Of a stretch of DNA of 64,000 nt, positions 23,957-41,062 are shown in pieces (positions within the stretch are counted from its first letter, which is position 1; the number at the start of each line of letters is the position of its first letter). The position numbers were made by a program, and so were the translations under genes. This DNA comes from Pseudomonadota bacterium (GTDB lineage Bacteria; Pseudomonadota; Gammaproteobacteria; Steroidobacterales; JBCBZW01): assembly GCA_039193195.1 (NCBI GenBank), contig JBCCWS010000019.1, positions 1-64,000 on the forward strand, given 5' to 3'. The notes beneath the pieces were generated by a model. That model made no database searches. It was given only the letters and a program-made list of their open reading frames with translations, and was not told where the DNA came from.

Positions 23957-26377
23957 GTGGATCCGCAAGTCTACGAGAAGCTGGGGCTGTTTTATCTCGG
24001 CCGCCAGGAGCTGGGTGACGAGGAAGGCGCCGCTGCCGCGCCGCTCCTGTACGAGTCACGCGATCTAACCACTCACGCGGCCATCATCGGCATGACGGGC
24101 AGTGGTAAGACCGGTCTTGGCGTTGGCCTCATCGAAGAGGCCGCGATCGATGGCATTCCGGTCATTGCGATCGACCCGAAGGGCGATCTCGGTAACTTGA
24201 TGCTCACCTTCCCCGATCTCGACGGCGACAGCTTCGCACCATGGATCAATCCGCGCGCAGCGGCAGACAGGGGGCTGACGTCGGAGGAGTTCGCCACCCA
24301 GCAGGCAGATCTGTGGCGACGTGGCCTGAAGAGCTGGGGCCAAGAGCCCGATCGCATCACGCGCTTGCGCGAAGCCGCTGACTTCGCCGTCTACACGCCG
24401 GGCAGCACCGCGGGCATCTCATTAGATGTGTTGGGTGACTTCGCGCCGCCGCCTGCGGGGACGGACGATGAAACCGGTCGCGAACGGCTCACGAGCACCG
24501 TATCCGCGTTGTTGATGCTCCTGGGGCTAGACGTCGACCCGCTCACCAGCCGCGAACACCTGCTGCTTAGCCAAATCCTGCAGACAGCTTGGGCCGAGGG
24601 TAAGTCCCCCACGCTCGCCGATCTAATCCATCAGGTGCAGCGTCCTCCCTTCGAGATTTTGGGCGTCATGTCGCTGGACGCCTTCTACCCGGAGAAGGAC
24701 CGCTTCGAGCTGGCGATGCGCATGAACTCACTCCTTGCCTCACCGGGTTTCTCCGCGTGGATGCAGGGGGAGCCCCTGCAGGCGGAGAACCTCCTGTACA
24801 CGGAGCACGGTAAGCCCAAGGTGTCCGTGGTGTACATCGCGCACCTGGGCGATGAGGAGCGCATGTTCGTGGTGTGTCGCCTGCTCACGCAGCTGATCGC
24901 CTGGATGCGCGCCCAGCCTGGTACCACCAGCCTGCGCGCTGTGCTGTACATGGACGAGGTGTTCGGTTACCTGCCGCCCGTGGCCAATCCGCCGGCAAAG
25001 ACCCTGTTCCTAACGTTGCTCAAGCAGGCACGTGCCTATGGCGTAGGTTTGGTGCTGGCGACGCAGAATCCCATCGACCTTGACTACCGCGCCCTATCCA
25101 ATATGGGCACCTGGATGATCGGCCGCCTGCAGACCGAACGCGATAAGATGCGCGTGCGCGACGGCCTGGAGAGCGCGGACGGCTCGGATCATCTCGACAC
25201 GAACGAGCTGATGCAGACCCTGTCCAGTCTGGGCAAGCGCCGCTTCCTTCTGCACAACGTGCACGAGGACGCGCCGGTGATCTTCGAGACACGCTGGGTG
25301 ATGAGCTACCTGCCGGGACCGTTGACGCGAGACCAGATAGAGCGGGTGATGGCGCCGATCAAGGCCGAACGGAGCGCAGGGGCATCAACGCCGAGGTTAG
25401 CGGCGGCACCGGCTACAGCCTCGCCGACCACGGTCGCAGCGCCGGGGGCGAATGCCGTCTCCGCACCCGTCGCCCCCAAAGGCGTGGAGATGCGCTTCGC
25501 GCCCCGCGGTGCCAGCGAGGCAACGGTGGAGTACGTGCCTTACGTCCTCGGTATCGCCGAGGTGAGCTATCACAGCGTGCGCTACAAAATCGACACGATC
25601 GTAGATCACGCGTGGCTTGCGCGTATCGACCCGGATGTGCCCGGCGGCCTCTCCTGGGAAGACGCTGTGCCCTTCGGCGGCGACGCCTCGCTCCTCGCTC
25701 ACGACGCCCCCGAGCAAGTGAGCTTTGCCGATGTCGACGGCGGCGACGCGAGGGTCCTTGCCAAGCACCAGCGCGCCTTCAAGTTCTGGCTGCGCACGCA
25801 GCAGCCCCTGACCCTCTACCGCTGCGCTGACCCCAAGGCGATCTCCGAGCTCGAGGAGACCGAGGCACGCTTCGTCTCCCGCCTAGTGCAGGTAAAACGC
25901 GAGGAGCGCGATCTCGCCATCGCCAAGAGCCGCGAGAAATTCGCCACCAAGCTAGAGCGACTCGAGGAGAAGGTCCGTAAAGCCAAGCAGGCCGTGGAGC
26001 GTGAGGCTCAGCAGGCGAGCGGCAGCTCCATGGGGGCTCTGGCCACGATGGGTGGCACAGTGCTCTCCATGCTCGTCGGCCGCAAACGCAGACGCAAGCT
26101 ATCGACGGTCTCCCGTGAGATGAGCAACGCTGCCAAGCAGCGCGGTGACGTTAAGCGCGCCAAAGAGAACGTTAAGGCTATCAAGACCGAAATGCGCGAC
26201 CTAGAGAAGGAGGCTAAGGCCGCGCTGGCTGACCTCGAAGACCAGGCGGACGAAGCGATCGTCGAGGTCGAGGAACTGCCGATTCGACCGAAGTCGGCGG
26301 ACATCGCCATCCATAGCTGCATGATCCTGTGGGCGCCGCGTGGGTTCGGTGCCGGCGGCCGAGCGGGCCGCGACTGA
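23957..26377 (+). CDS. HerA/FtsK-like ATPase with C-terminal coiled coil
   Basis: An 806-residue ATP-binding protein of the HerA-like superfamily (DUF853-related). Walker A is GMTGSGKT with Lys51, preceded by LTTHAAIIG. Walker B is VLYMDEVF (Asp333, Glu334), followed by LFLTLLKQARAYGVGLVLATQNP and NMGTWMIGRLQT, the sensor region of hexameric translocases. After about residue 470 there is a linker rich in Ala/Pro/Thr, then a domain of unknown fold. A long basic/acidic coiled coil follows (about 640-780, ending EMRDLEKEAKAALADLEDQADEAIVEVEEL), which E. coli YjgR lacks. GTG 23957 follows GAGGGGAATCC. Seven bases separate its stop from the next ATG, a patatin-like gene, so the two are probably one operon. 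Confidence 0.88.
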   Translation: MDPQVYEKLGLFYLGRQELGDEEGAAAAPLLYESRDLTTHAAIIGMTGSGKTGLGVGLIEEAAIDGIPVIAIDPKGDLGNLMLTFPDLDGDSFAPWINPRAAADRGLTSEEFATQQADLWRRGLKSWGQEPDRITRLREAADFAVYTPGSTAGISLDVLGDFAPPPAGTDDETGRERLTSTVSALLMLLGLDVDPLTSREHLLLSQILQTAWAEGKSPTLADLIHQVQRPPFEILGVMSLDAFYPEKDRFELAMRMNSLLASPGFSAWMQGEPLQAENLLYTEHGKPKVSVVYIAHLGDEERMFVVCRLLTQLIAWMRAQPGTTSLRAVLYMDEVFGYLPPVANPPAKTLFLTLLKQARAYGVGLVLATQNPIDLDYRALSNMGTWMIGRLQTERDKMRVRDGLESADGSDHLDTNELMQTLSSLGKRRFLLHNVHEDAPVIFETRWVMSYLPGPLTRDQIERVMAPIKAERSAGASTPRLAAAPATASPTTVAAPGANAVSAPVAPKGVEMRFAPRGASEATVEYVPYVLGIAEVSYHSVRYKIDTIVDHAWLARIDPDVPGGLSWEDAVPFGGDASLLAHDAPEQVSFADVDGGDARVLAKHQRAFKFWLRTQQPLTLYRCADPKAISELEETEARFVSRLVQVKREERDLAIAKSREKFATKLERLEEKVRKAKQAVEREAQQASGSSMGALATMGGTVLSMLVGRKRRRKLSTVSREMSNAAKQRGDVKRAKENVKAIKTEMRDLEKEAKAALADLEDQADEAIVEVEELPIRPKSADIAIHSCMILWAPRGFGAGGRAGRD

Positions 26378-26384
26378 TCCCGCC

Positions 26385-29027
26385 ATGCTCTTTGAGGACG
26401 TACAGCTGCGTGCGCAGGCTCCTGAGTATCGCCGTCGAGCGAAATCGTTGCTTCACGCATCGAAGGTCAGTCGCGAGGAGATCGACTCCCTAAGCAAGGT
26501 GCTCCTGGACCTGCGTGAGTGGAGCTATGCGCGCCGTTTGCTGGCGCGAGCTCGCGGTCGGGTGGTAGAGGACCCGAAGGCGCGCCTCGAACTCGCGCAG
26601 CGCCAAGCCCTCGCCACCTACAACGACACGGAGCTCCCGGTGGATGCGCGCCTGGAGGGCGCCCTCGCGATCCTCGAAGAGCGCTGTGGCCTGAAGAATA
26701 CGCGCAACCAACGGACACTCTCCCTAGCCGGTGCCGTGTTCAAGCGTCGCTGGCGTCTCGACGGCCACAAGGAAAACCTAGAGCGTGCGTTAACCTACTA
26801 CCTTCGCGCCTACGAGGAGGGGCCCGAGCACGATCTGGGCCAGTCCGGCATTAACGCAGCCTTTGTGCTCGATCAACTCGGCGATGTCGAACGTCGCGAA
26901 GCCGCTTCCGCTGGCGGCAGTTCGGACATGGCTGCCGCGCGCGCCGAGGAGACGCAGGCGATTCGCGAAGAGCTTGTCGAGACGCTATCGCCGCTTATTG
27001 AAGCGACCGAGTCTGTCGCTGATCGCTGGCGCCTCTACACGACGATCGCCGAGGCCTTGTTCGGTCTTGGCCAGTTCGAGCAGGCCGGCCCGTGGTTGGA
27101 GAAGCTGCGCGAACTCGGCGTCTCCGCCTGGCAGTACCAGGCGACGGTGCGGCAATTGGCATCAGTGGCTCGGATGCAGAGCGGGGATATGGGCAGCGTC
27201 CCAGGCTTCTCGCGCTCGCAGGCGGGCAAAGTCCTAAGGGAATTTCTGAGGGAGCATTCGCAGGCTGTGCGCGGCGCCTACGCGGGCCGGGTCGGTCTCG
27301 CCCTGTCGGGCGGCGGCTTCCGAGCTGCCCTTTACCACATCGGTGTGTTGGCGCGCCTCGCCGAGCTCGACGTGCTTCGCCACGTGGAAGTGCTGTCCTG
27401 TGTGGCGGGCGGCGCCATCGTAGGCACGCACTACTACCTACTATTGAAAGAGTTGCTCGAGTCCAAGGCGGACGCGGAGATCGCGCGCGAGGACTACATC
27501 GCCCTGGTGCGCCGCCTGGAGCGGCACTTTCAGGACGGCGTGCGGCGCAATCTGCGCGGTCGTCTCAACATCGACCCCGTGACCAACGCCAAGCTCCTCG
27601 GCCCGACCTACAACCGCACCATGCGAACGGGCGAGCTGCTCGAAGAGATGCTCTTCTCCCGCGTCGCGGAGGAGGCGGGGCAACCGCAACGCCGCCGCGG
27701 CAAGCGTGATCCCCTGTACATGCCCGATCTGGCCGTGCGCCCCTACGGCACGGCGCAGGGCGCCACCTTCGAGATCAAGCACGATAACTGGCGCCGCGCC
27801 GCCAAGGTGCCGGAGCTGGTGATCAACGCCACCACCCTCAACACGGGGCACAACTGGCAGTTCACCGCAGACTCCATGGGCGAACCCCCCGGCAGTATCA
27901 ATACGCACGTCGACTCCAGCTATCAACTGCGTCGAGTCAGTTACGCCGAGGCACCGGAGGGCGTGCGAAGTGTGCGTTTGGGGTATGCGGTCGCCGCATC
28001 GGCGGCCGTGCCAGGACGTACGGAACCGCTCTCCTTGAAGGGGCTTTACCCTGGCGTTGATGTTCGCCTCGTAGACGGCGGCGTGCAGGATACGCAAGGC
28101 ATCTCGGCGCTCCTGGAGCGCGACTGCCAGGTGATGCTGGTCAGCGATGGAACGGGCCCCATCGACAGCGTCGATGCGCCCAGCATCGGGCGCCTCGCGG
28201 CGCGTCGGCGAGCCAACATCATCCTGCGCGCTCGCGCCCTGCAGCTGTCGACGGAGCATCTGGAGGGACGCCGCCGTTCCGGTCTGTTGCGGGGTTTGAT
28301 GTTCGTGCACCTGCGCAAGGACCTTCCGGTGACGCCGATCGATTGGGTGGGGTGTGATGATCCCCTGTCCCTGGTGGAGGATCGCGCTCAGGAACGCGTC
28401 GAAGAGCTAACCGAGCACCAGGAGACCGAGTACGAGATTCCCATCGCTATCCAGCGCGCCCTGGCCGCTGTACGTACGGACTACGATGCCTTCCATGAGT
28501 CGGAGTCACTCACGTTAATGTTGAGTGGCTATCGTATGGCAGAGCACGCCTTCCGTGAGGACTCGTCTCTCACGGCGCTCACCGACGGTGAGGCACCATC
28601 GAACGATTGGGACTTCCTCGCCGTACAGGACGCGTTGCGCGACTACGCCGCGCGCGAGCACTTGCGCGAGGTACTAGCGGTGTCGGCGCGACGGCGCTTC
28701 AAGCCCTGGTTGGCTAGCGAGCGACTTCGTCAGGCGAGCTGGATCGCAGGCATCGGCGCCGCAGCGCTCGCGGCGATCGTGGGCGCGTTCAGCGCCAGCG
28801 CCGTACTGTTGAACGGTGCCGGTGCGGTGCTGCTGCTGTTGGCCACGGTGGTGGCGATTTGGGTAGGCCGGCGCCTGTCGGCATCCACGGATCTGCCGGT
28901 GATGGTGGGGCGCTTGGTGTATGGCTTGTGGGCGGTGGTGACCGGGCCGATCACTGGGCGGGCGCAGCTGTGGTTGTTGGATCGGTTGTATCTGCGCTTC
29001 GGGCGATTGAAACCGCCCGAGCGGTAG
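26385..29027 (+). CDS. Patatin-like protein with helical-repeat N-terminus and membrane tail; predicted catalytic serine replaced
   Basis: An 880-residue protein. The first about 290 residues are TPR-like helices. The patatin domain starts at VGLALSGGGFRAALYHIGVL (oxyanion loop from Ser308) and ends with the aspartate of VDGG (Asp564). The expected nucleophile elbow G/C-x-S-x-G reads SCVAGGAIVG: Ala341 (GCG at 27405-27407) occupies the serine position, so lipid hydrolysis by the classic dyad should fail. Two hydrophobic segments near 790-840 (AALAAIVGAFSASAVLL and AVLLLLATVVAIWVG) predict membrane anchoring. A longer GTG start at 26340 would overlap the ATPase gene by 38 bases. ATG 26385 is preferred, eight bases after that stop. 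The partner is probably the HerA-like ATPase. Confidence 0.85.
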   Translation: MLFEDVQLRAQAPEYRRRAKSLLHASKVSREEIDSLSKVLLDLREWSYARRLLARARGRVVEDPKARLELAQRQALATYNDTELPVDARLEGALAILEERCGLKNTRNQRTLSLAGAVFKRRWRLDGHKENLERALTYYLRAYEEGPEHDLGQSGINAAFVLDQLGDVERREAASAGGSSDMAAARAEETQAIREELVETLSPLIEATESVADRWRLYTTIAEALFGLGQFEQAGPWLEKLRELGVSAWQYQATVRQLASVARMQSGDMGSVPGFSRSQAGKVLREFLREHSQAVRGAYAGRVGLALSGGGFRAALYHIGVLARLAELDVLRHVEVLSCVAGGAIVGTHYYLLLKELLESKADAEIAREDYIALVRRLERHFQDGVRRNLRGRLNIDPVTNAKLLGPTYNRTMRTGELLEEMLFSRVAEEAGQPQRRRGKRDPLYMPDLAVRPYGTAQGATFEIKHDNWRRAAKVPELVINATTLNTGHNWQFTADSMGEPPGSINTHVDSSYQLRRVSYAEAPEGVRSVRLGYAVAASAAVPGRTEPLSLKGLYPGVDVRLVDGGVQDTQGISALLERDCQVMLVSDGTGPIDSVDAPSIGRLAARRRANIILRARALQLSTEHLEGRRRSGLLRGLMFVHLRKDLPVTPIDWVGCDDPLSLVEDRAQERVEELTEHQETEYEIPIAIQRALAAVRTDYDAFHESESLTLMLSGYRMAEHAFREDSSLTALTDGEAPSNDWDFLAVQDALRDYAAREHLREVLAVSARRRFKPWLASERLRQASWIAGIGAAALAAIVGAFSASAVLLNGAGAVLLLLATVVAIWVGRRLSASTDLPVMVGRLVYGLWAVVTGPITGRAQLWLLDRLYLRFGRLKPPER

Positions 29028-29990: not shown

Positions 29991-30574
29991 GTGGCAGATA
30001 CTTCCGACATCGACGCCCTGCTGAAAGCCGTCAAGTCGGGCGACAACGCGGCGGTAGACGCGCTTTATCGGTTGGTCTACGACGAGCTGCACAAGCTGGC
30101 GGCCGCCCAGCGGCGGCGTTGGGGCGGCAACCACACGATCGGCACCACGGCGCTGGTGCACGAGGCCTACCTCAAGCTTGGCGACGGCAAGGGTCAGGAC
30201 TGGGAAGGGCGTCGACACTTCTTCGGCACCGCGTCGATGGCCATGCGCCACGTACTGGTGAGCTACGCCCGCGCGGCGCAGGCGGACAAGCGCGGCGGTG
30301 GCATGCCTGCAGTGGAGATGGACCTCGAACTGGTGGCCGATCCTGTGATCATGAGCGACGTGCTCGCCCTGCACGACGCGCTCGAACGCCTTGAGGCCTT
30401 GGAATCTCGCTGGGCCCGCGTGGTGGAGTGCCGCGTCTTCGCGGGCATGAGCATCAACGAGCGGCCGATGCGCTTGGCGTCTCGCCGGCCACCGTCAAGC
30501 GTGACTGGACCTTCGCGTCGGCGTGGTTGTTCCGAGAGCTGCGTGCCACCTCGAGCCCCGCTGGCCCCCCGTGA
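29991..30574 (+). pseudogene. ECF sigma factor (kinase-associated type), frameshifted in region 4
   Basis: The GTG 29991 frame gives a normal sigma region 2 of the type paired with Ser/Thr kinases: AVDALYRLVYDELHKLAAAQ, TTALVHEAYLKL and RRHFFGTASMAMRHVLV. Region 4 begins ALERLEALESRWARVVECRVFAGMSINE. It then leaves the frame: the expected ADALGVSPATVKRDWTFASAW and LFRELRA follow one frame over, ending TGA 30572. A single base lost between 30459 and 30464 explains this. The helix-turn-helix that reads -35 elements is thus disconnected. It lies 113 bases upstream of a likewise broken kinase gene, the usual partner. Confidence 0.75.
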
Positions 30575-30687
30575 GGCGCAACCGGTCCGGGCGAGCGGGA
30601 TCCTTCCATGAGCCGTTTTGCCGACCGATCGCGTCTTGCTGACTAGGGGGGTGTGTGCACGACCACACGGGAGGGAGCTGCCACACC

Positions 30688-33059
30688 ATGAGCGATATGC
30701 TCGGCCGCGCGGCACAGCTATTGGATGCCGCGCTGGCGCTACCCCCGAACGCGCGTGCCGGCTTTGTCCAGCGCGAGTGCGGCGCTGACGAGGCGCTGCT
30801 GGCGGAAGTCACCTCGCTGCTCGCCGTCGCGGACAGCGCCGACGCCTGGCTGGGGGCTTTCGCCGAGCGCGTCGGCGACGTGCTGGCAGTGTCGCCTGGC
30901 GGGCAAACGGCCGCGAGCCTGCCGCCCGGCGAACGCGTGGGCGCGTGGCAGATCGAAGCCCCCTTGGGCGCGGGCGGGATGGGGGAGGTCTACGTGGCGA
31001 GCCGCGCAGACGGCCGCTACCAGCAATAGGTGGCTCTCAAGACCCTACGCGTCGCTTAAGCGCCCCTGCTGCTGACGCCTTTCGGAGTGAACGCGAGCGC
31101 CTCGCTCGCCTCAGTCACCCCGGTATCAGTCGCATCATCGATGGGGGAGAGACGCTCGACGGCCGTCCCTTCATGGTGATGGAGTACGTGGATGGCAAGG
31201 CCATCGACAAGTGGTGCCGTGACAACGACGTCGACGCGCGTACGCGCCTGCGCATGCTCGTCCAGCTGTGCGCCGCCGTCGCCCACGCTCACGCCCGCCT
31301 GGTGCTGCACCGAGACATCAAAGCCTCGAACGTGCTCGTCGATAGCAACGGCGACGTTAGGTTAATCGATTTCGGTATTTCGGCGCTGACCAACGAGGAG
31401 CGCAGCGCTGAGGCGGGCGGGCCGCTCACCGTGGCCACCGCCGCTCCGGAGCAACTTGCCGGCGAGGGGGTGTCCTCGCAAACGGATGTATTCGCCATCG
31501 GCCTGCTCGCTCATCAGCTCCTCGCCGGTAGGCTGCCTGCGCGATCCGCGGATCGCGGCGTGGTCCTCGACCCGTCTACGCTCCGGGCTCGTGAAGTGGT
31601 GAGCGTGCTCGAGCGAGCGACCCGCCTGGTGCCGGAGGATCGCTACGCATCAGCAGATGCATTGTCCGAGGACTTCCTAGCGCTTCTCGAGCATAGACCG
31701 GTCAGTCCGCTGCGCCGAGATCTCCTTTATCGACTGCGGAGCACCCTGCGCCGATACCCTGTGGCGAGCGCCCTCGCCGCGACCGCCTCGCTGGCGCTGG
31801 TGGTCGGGGCCGCGGTGAGCATGGTTCTCGCCGACCGCGCCGCCACCGAGGCCGCGCGGGCCCGAGACGCCCTGGCGGAGGCGCGCTTTTACCTTGAGCG
31901 CGCAGAACTGACGGCGGCCACCCAGTCCGCCTATTCCGACGCTCTGCAGCGGATGTTCGGTGACGAGGCGGACGAGCCTCGCATGCGCCGCATTCTCATC
32001 GACCATGCGCACCAGGCCCTCGCGCAGTACAAGGCCGATCCCGCGCGTGCGGCGCAGATCGCCTACGCAGTGGGTCGCCACTTCGTCGATCGCAACGATT
32101 ACGCCGCGGGCCTGGAGGTGCTCGAACCGTGGCTTACCCAGGGTTACGGCCATCCTCACCTCTTGCGCCAGGGGCGCCTCAACCAGGCGCTGGCTTACCG
32201 CTACACCGAGCGCCATGAGGAGGCGCTAGCTCTGTTCAACGAGGTGGATCAGGCCTTCATGGCTACGCCGGATCAGGGCTCCGTGGACCACCTCGTGGCC
32301 ATCGTGCAACGCGCTGAGCTGCTCTCCACGCGGGAGGCGTGGTCTTCGGCGCTGAGCGTGCTGAAGGACGCGGTCGCGCAAACGGACGATGCCCACACCG
32401 AGATGTTCTGTTGGGCCTATATCGATGCCTTCGAGAAGCGCCTGGGGAACTTCGCCGTGGCCTACGAGGCGGCGCGCCGCGCGGTTGCTGTGTTCGAGCG
32501 TCATCCCCTGCTGGAACTGCACGGCCGGGTGAACACACGCAGCATGCTGGCCAGCTATGAGATCTATTACACCAGCGACTATGACGCCGCCGTGCGACAT
32601 ATTGAGCAAGCACTGGCCGACGCTGAGGTGGCCGGCGAGACCGGTGCCATCGCCGAGCTGATCTACCTGCGCGGCGAATCGGCCCTCTTTCAAGGGGAGC
32701 TCGAGGAGACCCAGCGCTTGTACCGGAGGCCGAGGGCCATGGAACTTGAGTATTTCCCCGTGGATGTTGGTGGCACGACGTCGCTCGTCGAAGCGCTCGC
32801 CGAGGCGGGCGAGCTGCCCGAGGCAGAGCGGGAACTCGATCAGCTCGCCAAGCGCATGGACGAACTGCGCCCCGGCGGATCGAGGCATCCCAGGATCACG
32901 CTTGCCAGAGCCCGCCTTGCGGCAGCGCGTGATGGCGCCGCCGCGGCGCAGGATACCCTGGCGCAAGCCGGATTTACCCGATCCTTTGCGGCGACCAGTA
33001 TCGTTGGGATGGCGCGTGTGAAGCGCCTGGAAGCCCTAGGCGTTGAAGTGCCGGACTGA
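30688..33059 (+). pseudogene. PknB-type Ser/Thr protein kinase with membrane helix and TPR repeats, nonsense plus frameshift
   Basis: ATG 30688 follows GGGAGGGAG. The first part gives a short leader and the glycine loop PLGAGGMGEVYVASRADGRYQQ. An in-frame TAG (31027-31029) then interrupts just before VALKTLRVA, which holds the ATP-binding lysine. A shift near 31050-31062 moves the rest to another frame: FRSERERLARLSHPGI, LVLHRDIKASNVLVD, RLIDFGISAL. These are intact HRD and DFG motifs. A membrane helix (VASALAATASLALVVGAAV) and a C-terminal TPR region follow to 33059. Both lesions hit the N-lobe, so no full kinase can be made by normal decoding. The upstream ECF sigma partner is damaged too. 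Confidence 0.75.
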
Positions 33060-33194
33060 GACCACAGGACGGGGGCGGGGACGGCAGCGCCCGCTGACAT
33101 CGGCGCGTACGAAGGGCCCGCCACCACGTTAGCTGAGCGCTCGCCTTGCAGGCTGCGCCACCGCCGAGGGTGACGCAGCCGTTCACCTGAGCGG

Positions 33195-35445: not shown

Positions 35446-36455
35446 GCACCGAGCCGTCAGGAGAGAAGCAAGCGCCTTACGCCGACTGGCTCGGCGGGCG
35501 CCATGCGGGCTGGAAGTCGCTCGCCGGTCATATCGCCAGTAAGCGCCGCGACCTCGGACTTGAGCAGGCGCGTGAGGTGTTGGACGGCTATCAGGGCTTG
35601 GCCCGGGATGTGTCCCTCGCGCGGCGTGAAGTGCCAGGCAGCCGACTTCACCGCACCGCCGAGGCGCTGTACTCGCAGCTGCACCGCGCCATCAACAGCA
35701 AGCCGACCGCGCCACTCAATGACCTGTGGCAGCTCTATACCCAGCGCTTGCCGGCGGCGGTCCGCACGCTGCGGGGAGAACTCACGGTCTCCTTCGCTCT
35801 GTTTATCGCCGCCACCCTCGTCGGCTTCGCAATGGTGAGCGTGGCAACGGAGACCGCGGGGTGGTTCCTCTCGGGGCCGATGATCCGCAAGGTGCAGAAC
35901 GGGGGCCTGTGGACCGATGATCTCCTGAACATCATGCCGTCCTCCGTGCTCGCCGCGGACATCACCATGAATAACATCACCGTGTCGTTCACGGCCTTCG
36001 TTCTCGGCATGCTTTACGGTATCGGCACGCTGTACATTTTGTCCCTGAACGGGCTGATGCTGGGCTCTATCTTCGCCTACACGGCCGCCTACGGTACCGC
36101 CCTGCCGCTGTTTCGCTTCGTGATTGCCCACGGCATCGTAGAGCTATCGGTGATCTGCGTGGCCAGCGCGGCTGGTCTGGCGATCGGTCGCGCGCTGGCC
36201 AGACCTGGCGCTCACGGCAGAATCGCCTCCCTGCAGGCCGCCGCTGGCGATGCGGGTGCACTCTTGGCTGCCAGCGTTCCGTTTCTCATTGGCTGCGGGC
36301 TGATCGAGGGCTATATCTCACCGAATGAGTACTTTAACCTGGCCACGCGCGTGGCCGTGGGCTTGGCGTGGACGGTGGTGTTTCTGCTCGTTCTCGACGG
36401 GCGCCTTTGGGGGTGGCTGGCTCAGATGCGCTTGTCCGATCGCAAGCGCCTGTAG
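35442..36455 (+). CDS. SpoIIM-like (DUF95) membrane protein
   Basis: A 337-residue protein beginning at the ATGA overlap with the RDD gene. The N-terminal about 130 residues are soluble and helical (YADWLGGRHAGWKSLAGHI). Five or more membrane helices follow, with NNITVSFTAFVLGMLYGIGT, LNGLMLGSIFAYTA and FRFVIAHGIVELSVICVASAAGL, the conserved SpoIIM/DUF95 core. In Bacillus SpoIIM takes part in peptidoglycan remodelling. In non-sporulating bacteria this relative accompanies MoxR-DUF58 clusters and its role is unknown. Its 3' end overlaps the convergent DUF58 gene by 34 bases. Confidence 0.88.
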   Translation: MSTEPSGEKQAPYADWLGGRHAGWKSLAGHIASKRRDLGLEQAREVLDGYQGLARDVSLARREVPGSRLHRTAEALYSQLHRAINSKPTAPLNDLWQLYTQRLPAAVRTLRGELTVSFALFIAATLVGFAMVSVATETAGWFLSGPMIRKVQNGGLWTDDLLNIMPSSVLAADITMNNITVSFTAFVLGMLYGIGTLYILSLNGLMLGSIFAYTAAYGTALPLFRFVIAHGIVELSVICVASAAGLAIGRALARPGAHGRIASLQAAAGDAGALLAASVPFLIGCGLIEGYISPNEYFNLATRVAVGLAWTVVFLLVLDGRLWGWLAQMRLSDRKRL

Positions 36456-37786
36456 CACTCGAACACTTCGCGCTCTATTCGATCTGGGGTCGCCTCCACC
36501 ACCACGGCGCCCATGCGCTCGAGCGAGGCGCGGGTTCGCGCCGCGGTGCGCCGGTACTCGCGAGCGGCAATGGCCGTAAAGATGGCTTCGCGGTCGGTGC
36601 TGCCTGCTTGCATCATCTGCTCCAGGGATTCGTCCTGCACGGCGACCACCATCGGCAGGTGCTTCGGGCGCAGCAGCAGCGTGGCCTCAGCGAGCTGGCC
36701 GCTGGCGGTGGCGTCGTCGAGCTGGGTGAAATTCAGCACCAGAGCTCGCTGCGGCAGGGCGCGAGCGAGCTGAATCACGGCACTGAGCGGGTTGCTCTCG
36801 TTCGCCTGCGTGCGGCAGCTGGCCAGGCAATCGCGCAAGCGTCGCAGGTGGGCCGGGCCGTGCCCTGGCGGGACGCTTGCGATGGGTGCGTCGGCGTAGG
36901 TCAGCAGGCCGCAGCGATCGCCCGCGTGATCGGCGAGCTCGGCTAGGCGCGCGCTGATGTTGACGGCGTGACCCAACGCATCGAGTTGCCCCACCCGCAG
37001 GCGACTACTGCGCCCGCAGTCAAGGGCGAAGAGGATGAGTAGCTGCTGCTCCTCTTCGGTCTCTCGCACGACGAGGGAGCCGCTACGCGCCGTGGCTTTC
37101 CAGTCGATCACCGACGGCGGATCGCCGACGCTGTAGCCGCGCAGGCTGCGGAACTCGCTGCCGCCGTAGGAGCGGATGGCCTGTCGGGTGCTGCCCAGCC
37201 GGTCGAGGGCGCTGCGTCGCCCGGCGCCCGCCAGCATGGCCGGTGACACGTGAGTGACGGCCGGTGCCTGGTCCGCCGTATCGCTCGGTGGACTGTTGTG
37301 TGCGTTGTCTTCCGTGTCCGGGCGCTCATGCAGGGGGACCGAGCGAATCCATTCGGCCAGACCGAAGAGCCCGCGGACCATCACGGGTTGGCGAGGCCAT
37401 GGGTGCTCTCCCAGGCGCTGCGGCACCTGGCTGAACGGTAGTGTGCGGTGCTCGTCCGGTCGCAGACGCACCTGCGCATCTTGCAAGTCTCCGGCGAACC
37501 ACACGGGCGGACGGGGTGCGTACGCGCAGCGAAGCGCCGAGCGCCCGATGTTGGTCACGTGCAATACCCAGTCGGTGGGCTCTCCCAGGTGCACGGACGG
37601 TGGCTGCTCCAATGTAGCGAGCAGGGGAGGGGTGGTGCTCAGCAGCCGCTCGATGAGCAGCGCCAGCATCAGGGCCACCGTGAGCCAGCGCCATAGGCCA
37701 GCCAGAGGTGCTCCCATCCACAGGCCGGCGATGCCAATGGTGGCGATGGCGGCGATCCAGACGATGGCAGGCCAGCGCAAGGTCAC
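36422..37786 (-). CDS. DUF58 protein
   Basis: A 454-residue protein with two N-terminal membrane helices (IVWIAAIATIGIAGLWMGA and LTVALMLALLIERLL), an immunoglobulin-like region, and then the DUF58 signature FRSLRGYSVGDPPSVIDWKATAR (about residues 218-240). A vWA-like domain follows (LLILFALDCGRSSRL with the metal-site-like Asp-x-Ser pattern modified). Such proteins are thought to be co-factors of MoxR ATPases in assembling envelope complexes. It follows the moxR gene by nine bases on the same strand and is the last gene of the cluster. Confidence 0.9.
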   Translation of the reverse strand: MTLRWPAIVWIAAIATIGIAGLWMGAPLAGLWRWLTVALMLALLIERLLSTTPPLLATLEQPPSVHLGEPTDWVLHVTNIGRSALRCAYAPRPPVWFAGDLQDAQVRLRPDEHRTLPFSQVPQRLGEHPWPRQPVMVRGLFGLAEWIRSVPLHERPDTEDNAHNSPPSDTADQAPAVTHVSPAMLAGAGRRSALDRLGSTRQAIRSYGGSEFRSLRGYSVGDPPSVIDWKATARSGSLVVRETEEEQQLLILFALDCGRSSRLRVGQLDALGHAVNISARLAELADHAGDRCGLLTYADAPIASVPPGHGPAHLRRLRDCLASCRTQANESNPLSAVIQLARALPQRALVLNFTQLDDATASGQLAEATLLLRPKHLPMVVAVQDESLEQMMQAGSTDREAIFTAIAAREYRRTAARTRASLERMGAVVVEATPDRIEREVFECYRRLRSDKRI

Positions 37787-37795
37787 GGGAGTGCC

Positions 37796-38785
37796 CTACT
37801 CCTGTGACTCGCCGGTAGGTGAGGGTACTGCGCCCTGCACACGTGGCACGGCGATACCTTCCACCAGTCGGCTCAGAGTCTCTTGCGCCGTGAGGCCGGC
37901 GATGCGCGCTTCCGGCGTTAGCACAATACGGTGAGCGCCGACGGCGTCGACGACGCCCTGCACGTCGTCCGGGCGCACGAAGTCAAAGCCCGAGCCGGCG
38001 GCGAGTACGCGGGCCATCAGCAGCATGGCCCGCGCAGCGCGCGTGGATAAGCCGAGGGCGATGCTCTGCGCTTGTCGCGTGGCCTCGCAGATGTTCACGA
38101 CGTACTCCACCAACGCCTGTTCGATGCGCGTGGCGGCTACCTCGTCACGCGCGGCACGGAGCAGGCTGCGCTCATCCTCGATAGCGGCGAGAGCATCCTG
38201 GTGCGCACTTCCCTCGGGCGATGCGTAACGTTGCAGCACCTGCACTTCTTCAGCCCGTGGCGCGTAGGTGAGGTCGAGGCGGATGAGGAAGCGATCCACC
38301 TGTGATTCAGGCAGGGGATAGGTGCCCTCGAAATCGATCGGGTTTTGAGTGGCGATGACCACAAAGTCTGCAGGCAGCTCACGGGTGTCCCCGTCGATAG
38401 TGGTGCGCTTCTCCTCCATCGCCTCCAGCAGCGCTGCCTGGGTTTTCGGCCCGGCGCGGTTTATCTCATCGACTAGCACCACATCGGCGAAGAGGGGGCC
38501 TGGTCGAAATTTGAACTCGGTGCCGTCGGGGCGAAAGACCGTGACGCCCGTGATGTCGGCCGGCAGTAGGTCAGGCGTCCCCTGCACCCGTCGAAACTGC
38601 CCCCCGAGCGCCTGGGCGAAGGAGCGCGCCAGCAACGTCTTGCCTATCCCCGGCGGACCTTCGAGCAGTGCGTGGCCGCCGGCGATTCGGGTCATGCCCA
38701 AAAGCCGTGCCGCTTGCCCCAGGCCGAAGACCCGTTCGCCAAGCTTGCTCTGGATCTGTTGCAGGTAGTGTTGTGTGGGGTTCAT
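37796..38785 (-). CDS. MoxR-family AAA+ ATPase
   Basis: A 329-residue chaperone-like ATPase. Walker A is GHALLEGPPGIGKTLLARSF and Walker B VVLVDEINRAGPKTQAALLE. Sensor 1 reads ADFVVIATQNPIDFEGTYPL and the arginine finger region PESQVDRFLIRLDL. The helix-2 insert of MoxR proteins is seen as ITGVTVFRPDGTEFKF. ATG 38785 is taken as the start, since MoxR proteins begin shortly before the ERVFGLGQ segment. A frame-open ATG at 38851 would overlap the upstream gene by 35 bases. It probably acts with the adjacent DUF58 protein on envelope or metal-containing targets; the target is unknown. Confidence 0.93.
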   Translation of the reverse strand: MNPTQHYLQQIQSKLGERVFGLGQAARLLGMTRIAGGHALLEGPPGIGKTLLARSFAQALGGQFRRVQGTPDLLPADITGVTVFRPDGTEFKFRPGPLFADVVLVDEINRAGPKTQAALLEAMEEKRTTIDGDTRELPADFVVIATQNPIDFEGTYPLPESQVDRFLIRLDLTYAPRAEEVQVLQRYASPEGSAHQDALAAIEDERSLLRAARDEVAATRIEQALVEYVVNICEATRQAQSIALGLSTRAARAMLLMARVLAAGSGFDFVRPDDVQGVVDAVGAHRIVLTPEARIAGLTAQETLSRLVEGIAVPRVQGAVPSPTGESQE

Positions 38786-38816
38786 AGGATGTGTAGTTCG
38801 ACTTTCCAAGTGGAGG

Positions 38817-40379
38817 TCAGCGAATCGCTTCGCTGAGTGCTTTGATGTCATGTTGAAGGGCGGCGTAGGAGACCCGACGTCCCGCCGCCATCGCGGAGAG
38901 GCGATCGACGATCGTCGCGACCAGATCTGGGTGCCTATCGCGCTCTTTGACTAAGCCGTCCTTGAGGGCGCTTTGGATAGGGAGGCGCCACTTGCGCGCC
39001 AGCTGCGCGCTAAGGGGCTCGAGAATGGCTTCGTAAACGGCGTCGCGGCGTAGGCGCAGATCGAGAAAGCCGGCACTCGCGCGTACCAGTTCGAGCTGGC
39101 CCATGCCAGCGGGCGCTTGGCGGTAGAGCGCTCGCGCCCAATCGCCATTGTTCGCCAACAGGTATCCTATCCAGAACAACAGCACGAAGCCTATGCTCGC
39201 GTACAGCCGCCAGTCGGAAACGAGATCCGACGATTCCAGGATGTCGTTTAGGCCCTGGTGCGCATCGTCGAAGATCACCGTACCGCCGTCACCGAGCCAG
39301 GTATCGATCAGGCGCATAGCGAAGCGCCGATTGCCGAAGCGGTGGAGCACATCGTTCGCCAGCAGGGAAGGATGCAGGAGCACGAGCACATCGCCCTGAC
39401 CTAGGGGAGCCTGCATCATGACGGGTTGTTCCGAGTCTGCGTGAGCCAGTAAGCGCTGCCACGTGTCCGCCCCTGGGGTGAGGATTTCGCGACAGCCGTT
39501 GCGACCGCGTAGTTCCCGCGTCACGAGACCGGTGGTCGGCAGCTCGTAGAGGGAGCCGCCGCACGCGGCGAGGTCGGCCTCGATACCGGCGCTAGCATCA
39601 TCATCATCGATGAGGCGAAGGGGGTTGGCGTCAGGAGTGGCTTCTTCTTCCTGCGCGCCACCTTGTCCTGCCTTGGTTGAGGTATTGGGGAAGGCTGGTA
39701 TCCACTGGTCGCCGTCCCAGGGCACGCGCAAGCCATCCAATCCGGCGGCAAACGGTTGACCAGGTGAGCTGGCAAGATCCACTGCCTCTGCAGAACCATG
39801 CACTAGGAGCCACCCCGGGACGTTCAGGGCATCCTCGAGCGAGTCGCGTATCTCGCCCATCGTCTCGCCGGCTGTCGCCGAGGTGTTATCGCCATCTGAT
39901 GCTTCCCCGTTGAGGGCTGGCGAGATCTCCTCGTCACCGTTCCATGTGATGAAGGGCCGCAGAGGCAGGCCGGTTAGGCGCCAGAGTGACCGAGTGAGGT
40001 CGAATCCATCGTAAATCCATGGCGCCGACTCCAGGTGTCCGCTCGCCACCAGTAGGGTATTTCCCTCACGTATCCAGTTCATAAGGTGAGCGATCTCATC
40101 CGCCTCGAAGAGCAGCACGGCCGGCACGTGGACGATCGCGAGATTTCCCGTTGGCGTGGAGAGTTCCGCAAGACTGCTCGAGGTGAACCGCACACGCTGG
40201 GAGTGAGTTGAGATCCGCGCGGTACCGAGCCAACGATGCAATGCGGCCAGGCCGAGCTCGCTCGTATTGTCGGTGGTCGGCCGCTCGGGCTCAGCATTCT
40301 CGTTGAAGCCCGGGATGACGAGTAGCGCGACGAGCATGAGGACTGCGCCGACCCAGAGCAATGTGCGTAGGCGGTCCAT
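38817..40379 (-). CDS. DUF4350-domain membrane protein
   Basis: A 520-residue protein starting at the ATGA overlap with the DUF4129 gene. An N-terminal helix (LLWVGAVLMLVALLVIPGF) precedes the DUF4350 fold, a GATase-like region with LGLAALHRWLG, GNLAIVHVPAVLLFEADEI and NWIREGNTLLVASG. A second membrane helix (YASIGFVLLFWIGYLLA) lies near residue 400 and a helical cytoplasmic tail follows. An acidic Ala/Glu-rich insertion sits in the middle (about 215-290). It belongs to the MoxR-associated envelope set and its biochemical function is unknown. Confidence 0.82.
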   Translation of the reverse strand: MDRLRTLLWVGAVLMLVALLVIPGFNENAEPERPTTDNTSELGLAALHRWLGTARISTHSQRVRFTSSSLAELSTPTGNLAIVHVPAVLLFEADEIAHLMNWIREGNTLLVASGHLESAPWIYDGFDLTRSLWRLTGLPLRPFITWNGDEEISPALNGEASDGDNTSATAGETMGEIRDSLEDALNVPGWLLVHGSAEAVDLASSPGQPFAAGLDGLRVPWDGDQWIPAFPNTSTKAGQGGAQEEEATPDANPLRLIDDDDASAGIEADLAACGGSLYELPTTGLVTRELRGRNGCREILTPGADTWQRLLAHADSEQPVMMQAPLGQGDVLVLLHPSLLANDVLHRFGNRRFAMRLIDTWLGDGGTVIFDDAHQGLNDILESSDLVSDWRLYASIGFVLLFWIGYLLANNGDWARALYRQAPAGMGQLELVRASAGFLDLRLRRDAVYEAILEPLSAQLARKWRLPIQSALKDGLVKERDRHPDLVATIVDRLSAMAAGRRVSYAALQHDIKALSEAIR

Positions 40380-41062
40380 CAGTCGTCCGCCGATAGGTGG
40401 GCCAACACCGCTGCCTGGCGTGCCTGTAACGCGGCCAGCTCCGCATCGTCGGGCTGCCAACCCGCAAACAGATTGCGGTCAGCGGCATCCGCGAGTGCCG
40501 ACAGATGCTGGCGTAAGGGGGCAGGCAACGTCGCCGCGTCTGCCAGCGTTCGGTTAGTTTGAAACGGCCCCACCTCGAGCAGGCGGGCTTGTGCGAGCGC
40601 CATACAGGTATGGATGAACAAGGCCGGTGCCCAATGTTCGCGTGGAAGTTCCGTGAGGGGGCGGGCGAAGTCGCCTCGCTCCAGGCCCGTAAGGTCGAGG
40701 GCCGGTGGGCGTGCCACCGGCGGAAAGTAGTGGCGCCAGGTGCGCCAAAGTGCAATAGCGACGAGCGCAGCTGCCCCGGCCAATATCGCAAAACCGATGA
40801 CGTTGATGATCGCTTCGCCATCGATCGGCGGAGCACCCAGCCCTGTTAGCCAGTTGTCGAGGCGCTCGATAGCCCCGACCAGCCACCCATCCTCGCCTCC
40901 GGTCACCTCCTGCAGCCAACGCCATGCCTTGCGCGCGACGTCCCGATACCAGGCCATCAGGCTATCGAGCGCAGCCGCCTCGGAAAGATCCAACTCCGCG
41001 ATGATCGGGTCGAGCGTTTCCGCATCTAGGCGCGACGGGCCGGGGCTTACCTCGTCAGCCAA
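40379..41062 (-). CDS. DUF4129-domain membrane protein
   Basis: A 227-residue protein with a cytoplasmic or periplasmic helical start (WYRDVARKAWRWLQEV). One clear membrane helix (IINVIGFAILAGAAALVAIALW) lies near 82-104. The DUF4129 C-terminal region contains ALFIHTCMALAQARLLEV and QTNRTLADAATLPAPLRQ. This domain is typical of proteins near transglutaminase or MoxR/DUF58 genes. The stop overlaps the next gene's start, so the two are translationally coupled. Confidence 0.8.
   Translation of the reverse strand: MADEVSPGPSRLDAETLDPIIAELDLSEAAALDSLMAWYRDVARKAWRWLQEVTGGEDGWLVGAIERLDNWLTGLGAPPIDGEAIINVIGFAILAGAAALVAIALWRTWRHYFPPVARPPALDLTGLERGDFARPLTELPREHWAPALFIHTCMALAQARLLEVGPFQTNRTLADAATLPAPLRQHLSALADAADRNLFAGWQPDDAELAALQARQAAVLAHLSADD

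Follow-up and report, generated by a model that had tools for sequence, protein, structure and literature searches.

A TPR-S/patatin membrane protein that lacks the nucleophile serine but remains under strong purifying selection in a bacterial genus

The DNA analyzed here, referred to as the window, is a 64,000-nucleotide stretch (positions 1 to 64,000 of contig JBCCWS010000019.1) from a bacterium of the order Steroidobacterales. On its forward strand, positions 26385 to 29027 (stop codon included) hold a gene for an 880-amino-acid protein with a TPR-S domain, a patatin domain, and a membrane segment; the gene is delimited by its open frame and by its ortholog in a sister species. The open frame, which ends with the stop codon at 29027, could also begin at a GTG at 26340, but the ATG at 26385 is the likelier start and is preferred because the sister gene supports it. 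The protein exceeds the Pfam cut-offs for both families, namely, TPR-S (PF20308) at residues 46 to 161 (26520 to 26867, forward strand; 45.8 bits versus a cut-off of 27.6) and Patatin (PF01734) at residues 305 to 571 (27297 to 28097, forward strand; 51 bits versus 27.7), while no NCBIfam profile matched it. Near the C terminus, a hydrophobic segment spans residues 784 to 833 (28734 to 28883, forward strand), with 19-residue Kyte-Doolittle windows above 1.6 beginning at residues 784 to 815. The AlphaFold2 model of the full-length protein was confident (pLDDT, 88; pTM, 0.90) and placed helices at residues 779 to 805 and 811 to 834. The hydrophobic segment probably corresponds to two membrane helices.

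Patatins use a Ser-Asp catalytic dyad and an acyl-enzyme mechanism. In the patatin gene, the active-site motifs fall between codon 308 and codon 564 (27306 to 28076). An initial annotation of this DNA had described the oxyanion loop SGGGFR and the dyad Asp564 in VDGG as intact, and both read as described on the forward strand: the loop occupies residues 308 to 313 (27306 to 27323) in the context ALSGGGFRA (S308 to R313), and codon 564 (28074 to 28076) encodes the Asp of LVDGG. At the nucleophile elbow, LSCVAGGAI, codon 341 (27405 to 27407) is GCG and encodes Ala instead of the nucleophile Ser, at exactly the position where the annotation had reported Ala341 in SCVAGG and, as it had also pointed out, a single base change away from TCG, which encodes Ser. 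Alignment of the family profile with the sequence of the PlpD structure placed column 341 on the Ser of PlpD GTSMG, a match that is weak taken alone (i-Evalue, 0.62), and Asp564 on the Asp of the PlpD DGG motif (i-Evalue, 0.0023). Of the two residues expected in an active patatin, the DGG Asp is thus present and the elbow Ser is absent, with Ala341 in both the window and the sister species.

The sister species (G001) is the sole other genome of the genus that our search returned, and statements about the genus refer to these two genomes. Its gene has 880 codons without stops, and its protein is 95.5% identical to that of the window, at 85% identity in DNA. Ala341 is encoded by GCC in the sister and by GCG in the window. 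An error of sequencing or assembly could be suspected, as could a mutation confined to this strain, from the single-base distance to a Ser codon and from the broken frames of the two genes directly downstream in the window. However, the second species has the same Ala, together with Thr570, and because it writes this Ala with another codon, both error and lone mutation are excluded, and we give them practically no credence. The annotation had proposed asking whether Ala is kept in a clade and had regarded Ser in all close homologues as the outcome that would count against its reading. Ala341 was found in both genus genomes examined; the closest homologue carries Ala, and the relatives examined outside the genus carry Ser.

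Nei-Gojobori counts between the window gene and the sister gene gave 339 synonymous differences over 682 sites and 53 nonsynonymous differences over 1958 sites (Fisher P, ~1e-172), with an overall dN/dS of 0.034 at a dS of ~0.8. By part, dN/dS was 0.026 for residues 1 to 260, 0.031 for the patatin domain, and 0.077 for the C-terminal membrane part. Neighboring genes in the same species pair had values of 0.035 (OPT transporter), 0.076 (HerA-like ATPase), and 0.074 (part of the POT transporter); the patatin gene is therefore about as constrained as the OPT transporter gene. The 880-amino-acid protein is under strong purifying selection across all its parts. A gene that is decaying after loss of its enzyme function might show the missing nucleophile, the long stem branch described below, and the higher dN/dS of the membrane part. 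However, the frame is open over 880 codons in both species, and synonymous changes far outnumber nonsynonymous ones at this divergence. On the basis of the open frame and strong constraint in this species pair, decay is rejected, and we consider it very improbable; the gene has neither the broken frame nor the relaxed constraint of a pseudogene. The annotation's suggestions that the rest of the domain is under selection and that the gene is not dying both hold. Features beyond those it described are the TPR-S half, the C-terminal membrane segment, the change from Asn to Thr at 570 in the Asp motif, and the conflict-system setting of the family.

Relatives were collected by a contig scan of one genome per species, which recovered 478, and the nearest 80 were kept for counts. 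The scan used two sequence patterns, neither touching the nucleophile. One was the Asp motif with Asn or Thr allowed at position 570, so counts at positions 564 to 572 are favored by the search; Thr at 570, although allowed, was absent among the relatives examined. Position 341 was Ser in 80/80 relatives (best 80 of 478), as were Gly at each of positions 309 to 311 and Arg at 313, in line with an intact oxyanion loop. Asp564 and Asn570 were found in all 78 relatives that cover them, the other two being split genes without that part in the piece used. The window protein also differs at codon 344 (27414 to 27416, forward strand), which encodes Ala where 79 relatives have Ser and one has Ala, and at codon 570 (28092 to 28094, forward strand), which encodes Thr, as in the sister, where all 78 relatives have Asn. 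Searches among genomes closer to the host, one covering 97 and the other 369, yielded 19 distinct aligned genes, all with Ser341; one of them (L022) is identical over the tree region to L121, which is among the 80. A gene outside this alignment (L013) has Ser at 341 by reading, and one match (L019) covered the TPR part alone. Four more genes, each with Ser, came from searching 398 genomes of the phylum.

A quick tree of 86 rows, from which four of the 80 loci were omitted as fragments, nested the genus inside the Ser-bearing family, beside a Bryobacterales protein (SH-aLRT, 90), its stem branch being long, at 0.98 changes per column. Judging from this tree and the residue counts, loss of the nucleophile is a derived state in the genus. 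After six incomplete sequences had been dropped from the 80, the remaining 74 full-length relatives shared 54 invariant positions, and the window protein departs at five of these: S341A, S344A, N570T, R619L, and L700Y. The sister has all five, and three of them sit in the two active-site motifs. When each of the 74 relatives was left out in turn, departures averaged 0.32, with a maximum of 4 (L141). At a looser threshold of 95% conservation, the window protein departs at 12 of 114 positions, compared with 12 of 118 for the Ser-bearing L141, 10 for L090, and a mean of 2.4; by this alignment-based count, the window protein is high but not unique. Because L141 reaches 12 departures while keeping Ser, the changes may in part reflect ordinary divergence along the long stem.

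Catalysis might persist by another route, with water activated by Asp564 or with Ser338 or Cys339 as the nucleophile. The intact Asp564 and oxyanion loop, as well as the conservation of the pocket between the two species, are compatible with such residual activity. However, Ser338 (80/80) and Cys339 (58/80) occur alongside Ser341 in the relatives (best 80 of 478), and since relatives with Ser341 have them too, these residues did not arise as substitutes; Asn570, beside the Asp, is also altered. A substitute nucleophile at Ser338 or Cys339 is accordingly not favored, and residual catalysis by any of these routes appears unlikely.

The genomic setting upstream is shared by the two species, with a POT transporter, an OPT transporter, and a HerA-like ATPase preceding the patatin gene in the same order. 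The gap between the HerA-like gene (23957 to 26377, forward strand) and the patatin gene is 7 bases in the window and 6 bases in the sister. No open reading frame of at least 120 amino acids resembling the HerA-like ATPase was seen in the loci of the 80 relatives (flanks up to 6 kb, often ended by the contig). A search of 185 genomes found the HerA-like gene in three others, and no patatin relative was recognized by eye within ~1.5 kb on either side of it in those three. Because it occurs elsewhere without the patatin gene and was absent from the loci of the 80 relatives as far as their flanks extend, the HerA-like ATPase is not favored as a functional partner.

The window and sister genomes diverge directly after the patatin stop codon, and the match resumes at window position 33151. 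In the window, this stretch contains an ECF-sigma-like gene (29991 to 30611), whose frame shifts in the last third and which looks broken, and a Ser/Thr kinase gene with TPR (30655 to 33059), which looks broken as well, its frame being interrupted by a stop codon and shifting close to the start. The sister is without the ECF-sigma/kinase stretch at the corresponding place; the sister sequence that replaces window 29.0 to 33.1 kb includes a 1007-amino-acid open reading frame (L145, 12441 to 15464, in G001) with no Pfam match. Farther downstream, on the reverse strand at 36422 to 40460, DUF58, MoxR-type AAA, and DUF4350 genes lie in a row, an arrangement that is presumably a common operon and is unlinked to the patatin finding.

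No TIR, STAND, TPR-S, or cyclase domain was found among the ten scanned neighbors of the window patatin gene. For the relatives, upstream open reading frames were present in 75 of 80 loci, with 49 on the same strand and 44 scanned that lay within 300 bases. Matches among these 44 neighbors were to TPR-S (8), MAP3K_TRAF_bd (8), TIR_2 (5), and nSTAND1 (2), and five relatives (L126, L081, L097, L091, and L095) have N-terminal additions that by eye are STAND, TIR, ParA-like, or SLOG modules. As judged from these genes and modules, the neighborhood of the relatives resembles that of bacterial conflict systems, whether of the immune or the suicide kind. PADLOC returned no match for the window protein or for any of 54 family members, a plasmid search gave 2 records, neither of which spanned 80% of the query, and viral contigs contained one weak relative among 22 pattern matches.

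Two other TPR-S proteins were observed during these searches. A 495-amino-acid open reading frame (L034, 1435 to 2919, in G343) is TPR-S-like and lies directly upstream of the Ser-bearing L022 patatin gene; it has 30% identity to window residues 70 to 249 and an N-terminal domain and is perhaps a sensor partner of L022. Another TPR-S protein of the window genome (L044, G000:C27:45939-46274 plus flanks; 574 amino acids) is by eye fused to a trypsin-like protease, and an alpha/beta-hydrolase-like gene overlaps its start.

The window genome contains seven other patatin matches; GXSXG is present in the six that exceed the family cut-off and, by pattern scan, absent from the seventh, which falls below it. 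These patatins belong to other subfamilies. One could also picture the window protein as a subunit that regulates, or acts as a dominant negative on, an active twin patatin within its cell. A dominant-negative role has been proposed for inactive effector domains in the available part of one study (PMC7159879), and patatins of similar fold form filaments and dimers, according to the titles of their structures. However, at E 0.001 each of the two genus genomes gave a single match, that is, no close paralogue. Because such a paralogue is absent, simple interference with a twin is disfavored; with the other patatins of the genome outside the subfamily as well, we see little likelihood that this explanation is correct.

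In bacterial immunity, patatin effectors are believed to kill by cleaving membrane lipids. The reading we prefer for the window protein is that of a genus-specific, catalytically dead member of a widespread TPR-S/patatin/membrane family, similar to the sensor-effectors of conflict systems, that would act by binding; we hold this to be reasonably probable overall. From its residues, the protein is very likely dead as a serine hydrolase: in the absence of the nucleophile Ser, the Ser-Asp acyl-enzyme reaction should be impossible, and we therefore infer a putative action by binding. Retention for a noncatalytic function is likely, and a conflict or immune setting is somewhat better than an even prospect, while a decoy or scaffold role in particular falls a little short of even. 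In the proposed mechanism, the ASK1-like TPR part would sense a signal or a partner, the patatin fold would retain the pocket and an assembly surface and bind rather than cut, and the C-terminal helices would anchor the protein at the membrane. There, the protein could be a scaffold, or it could be a decoy that draws in a lipid, a ligand, or an invader protein targeting the active patatins of the cell.

A further relative bears on how often catalysis may have been lost. The 1304-amino-acid open reading frame L023 (G259:C35, 115 to 4026) comes from another family of the class and is a fusion of a STAND-type NTPase (by eye), TPR-S, and patatin. It keeps the nucleophile Ser but has SGMGLK as the oxyanion loop, DGN for DGG, and SSKG for DNQG, and perhaps represents a second, independent loss of catalysis. 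These motif changes, from one genome that is 87% complete, hint at repeated loss in the family. A more specific proposal, of an immune decoy or scaffold working without hydrolysis at the membrane in a family that has abandoned catalysis more than once, is tentative, and we rate it as rather doubtful. If it is true, assembly and ligand capture would count, besides lipid cutting, as functions of patatin effectors.

The patatin fold, the TPR-S domain (a name that reportedly originates with Burroughs and Aravind), and the concept of dead effectors are already known. No paper on the TPR-S patatin family, or on a conserved member without the nucleophile, was recognized by title or abstract among the matches listed in a search that covers subscription literature thinly. 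With the window protein, the dead enzyme domains proposed for conflict systems would come to include a lipase fold. The change is a clean one within a single genus, versus Ser in every relative examined outside it, and a strongly conserved natural patatin without its nucleophile makes the remaining roles (sensing, assembly, and ligand capture) testable.

CapV and CapE, which we take to be patatin effectors of CBASS in phage defense, share the patatin fold with the window protein. Structure comparison of the patatin part, alongside which Foldseek was also run on the model, gave Z scores of 23.5 for PlpD, 22.6 for AbCapV (S58A, 9kej_A), 21.9 for CapE (9ioq), and 21.8 each for plant patatin and cytosolic phospholipase A2. 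The title of 9kej_A describes an AbCapV S58A filament bound to 3'3'-cGAMP; since that filament holds its ligand, the title suggests that ligand binding and assembly survive in AbCapV when the Ser-to-Ala change seen at position 341 is made in the laboratory. In contrast to CapV and CapE, which are single-domain, nucleotide-triggered lipases, the window protein carries a TPR-S half plus a membrane tail and is without the Ser; Ala341 and the lack of a cyclase among the ten scanned neighbors set it apart from a CBASS effector. PlpD, the sole match in the PDB by sequence at E values up to 0.01, and cytosolic phospholipase A2 have the same fold, and the Ser and Asp columns of PlpD align, but these are active enzymes that have the Ser and no TPR-S domain.

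Residues 4 to 286 have an ASK1-like TPR fold, matching the central regulatory region of ASK1 (MAP3K5; 5ulm_A) with a Z score of 18.7 and a root mean square deviation of 3.7 over 238 aligned residues. In the available part of PMC10972558, ASK1 is described as regulating a kinase, whereas the TPR part in the window is fused to a patatin, and a common fold does not imply a common signal. A different likeness is to conflict systems of the MoxR-vWA type, for which Kaur et al. 2020 proposed, in the part of the text available, that inactive enzyme domains act as decoys or dominant negatives where the cell also has active versions of them (PMC7159879). As in those systems, an enzyme fold is retained without catalytic residues while active versions exist in the cell. 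However, the domains described there are caspases, trypsins, cyclases, and others, the words "patatin" and "TPR-S" being absent from that text, and the MoxR and vWA core lies outside the operon of the window patatin gene. The closest comparison is with the Ser-bearing TPR-S/patatin proteins, such as L121 from Methylotuvimicrobium buryatense 5G and L065 from a Desulfobacterales MAG, which have the same domain order and length, mostly 36 to 47% identity, and the same oxyanion loop and Asp motif. They differ from the window protein in having the Ser nucleophile and Asn570, and many have TIR, STAND, or TPR-S neighbors.
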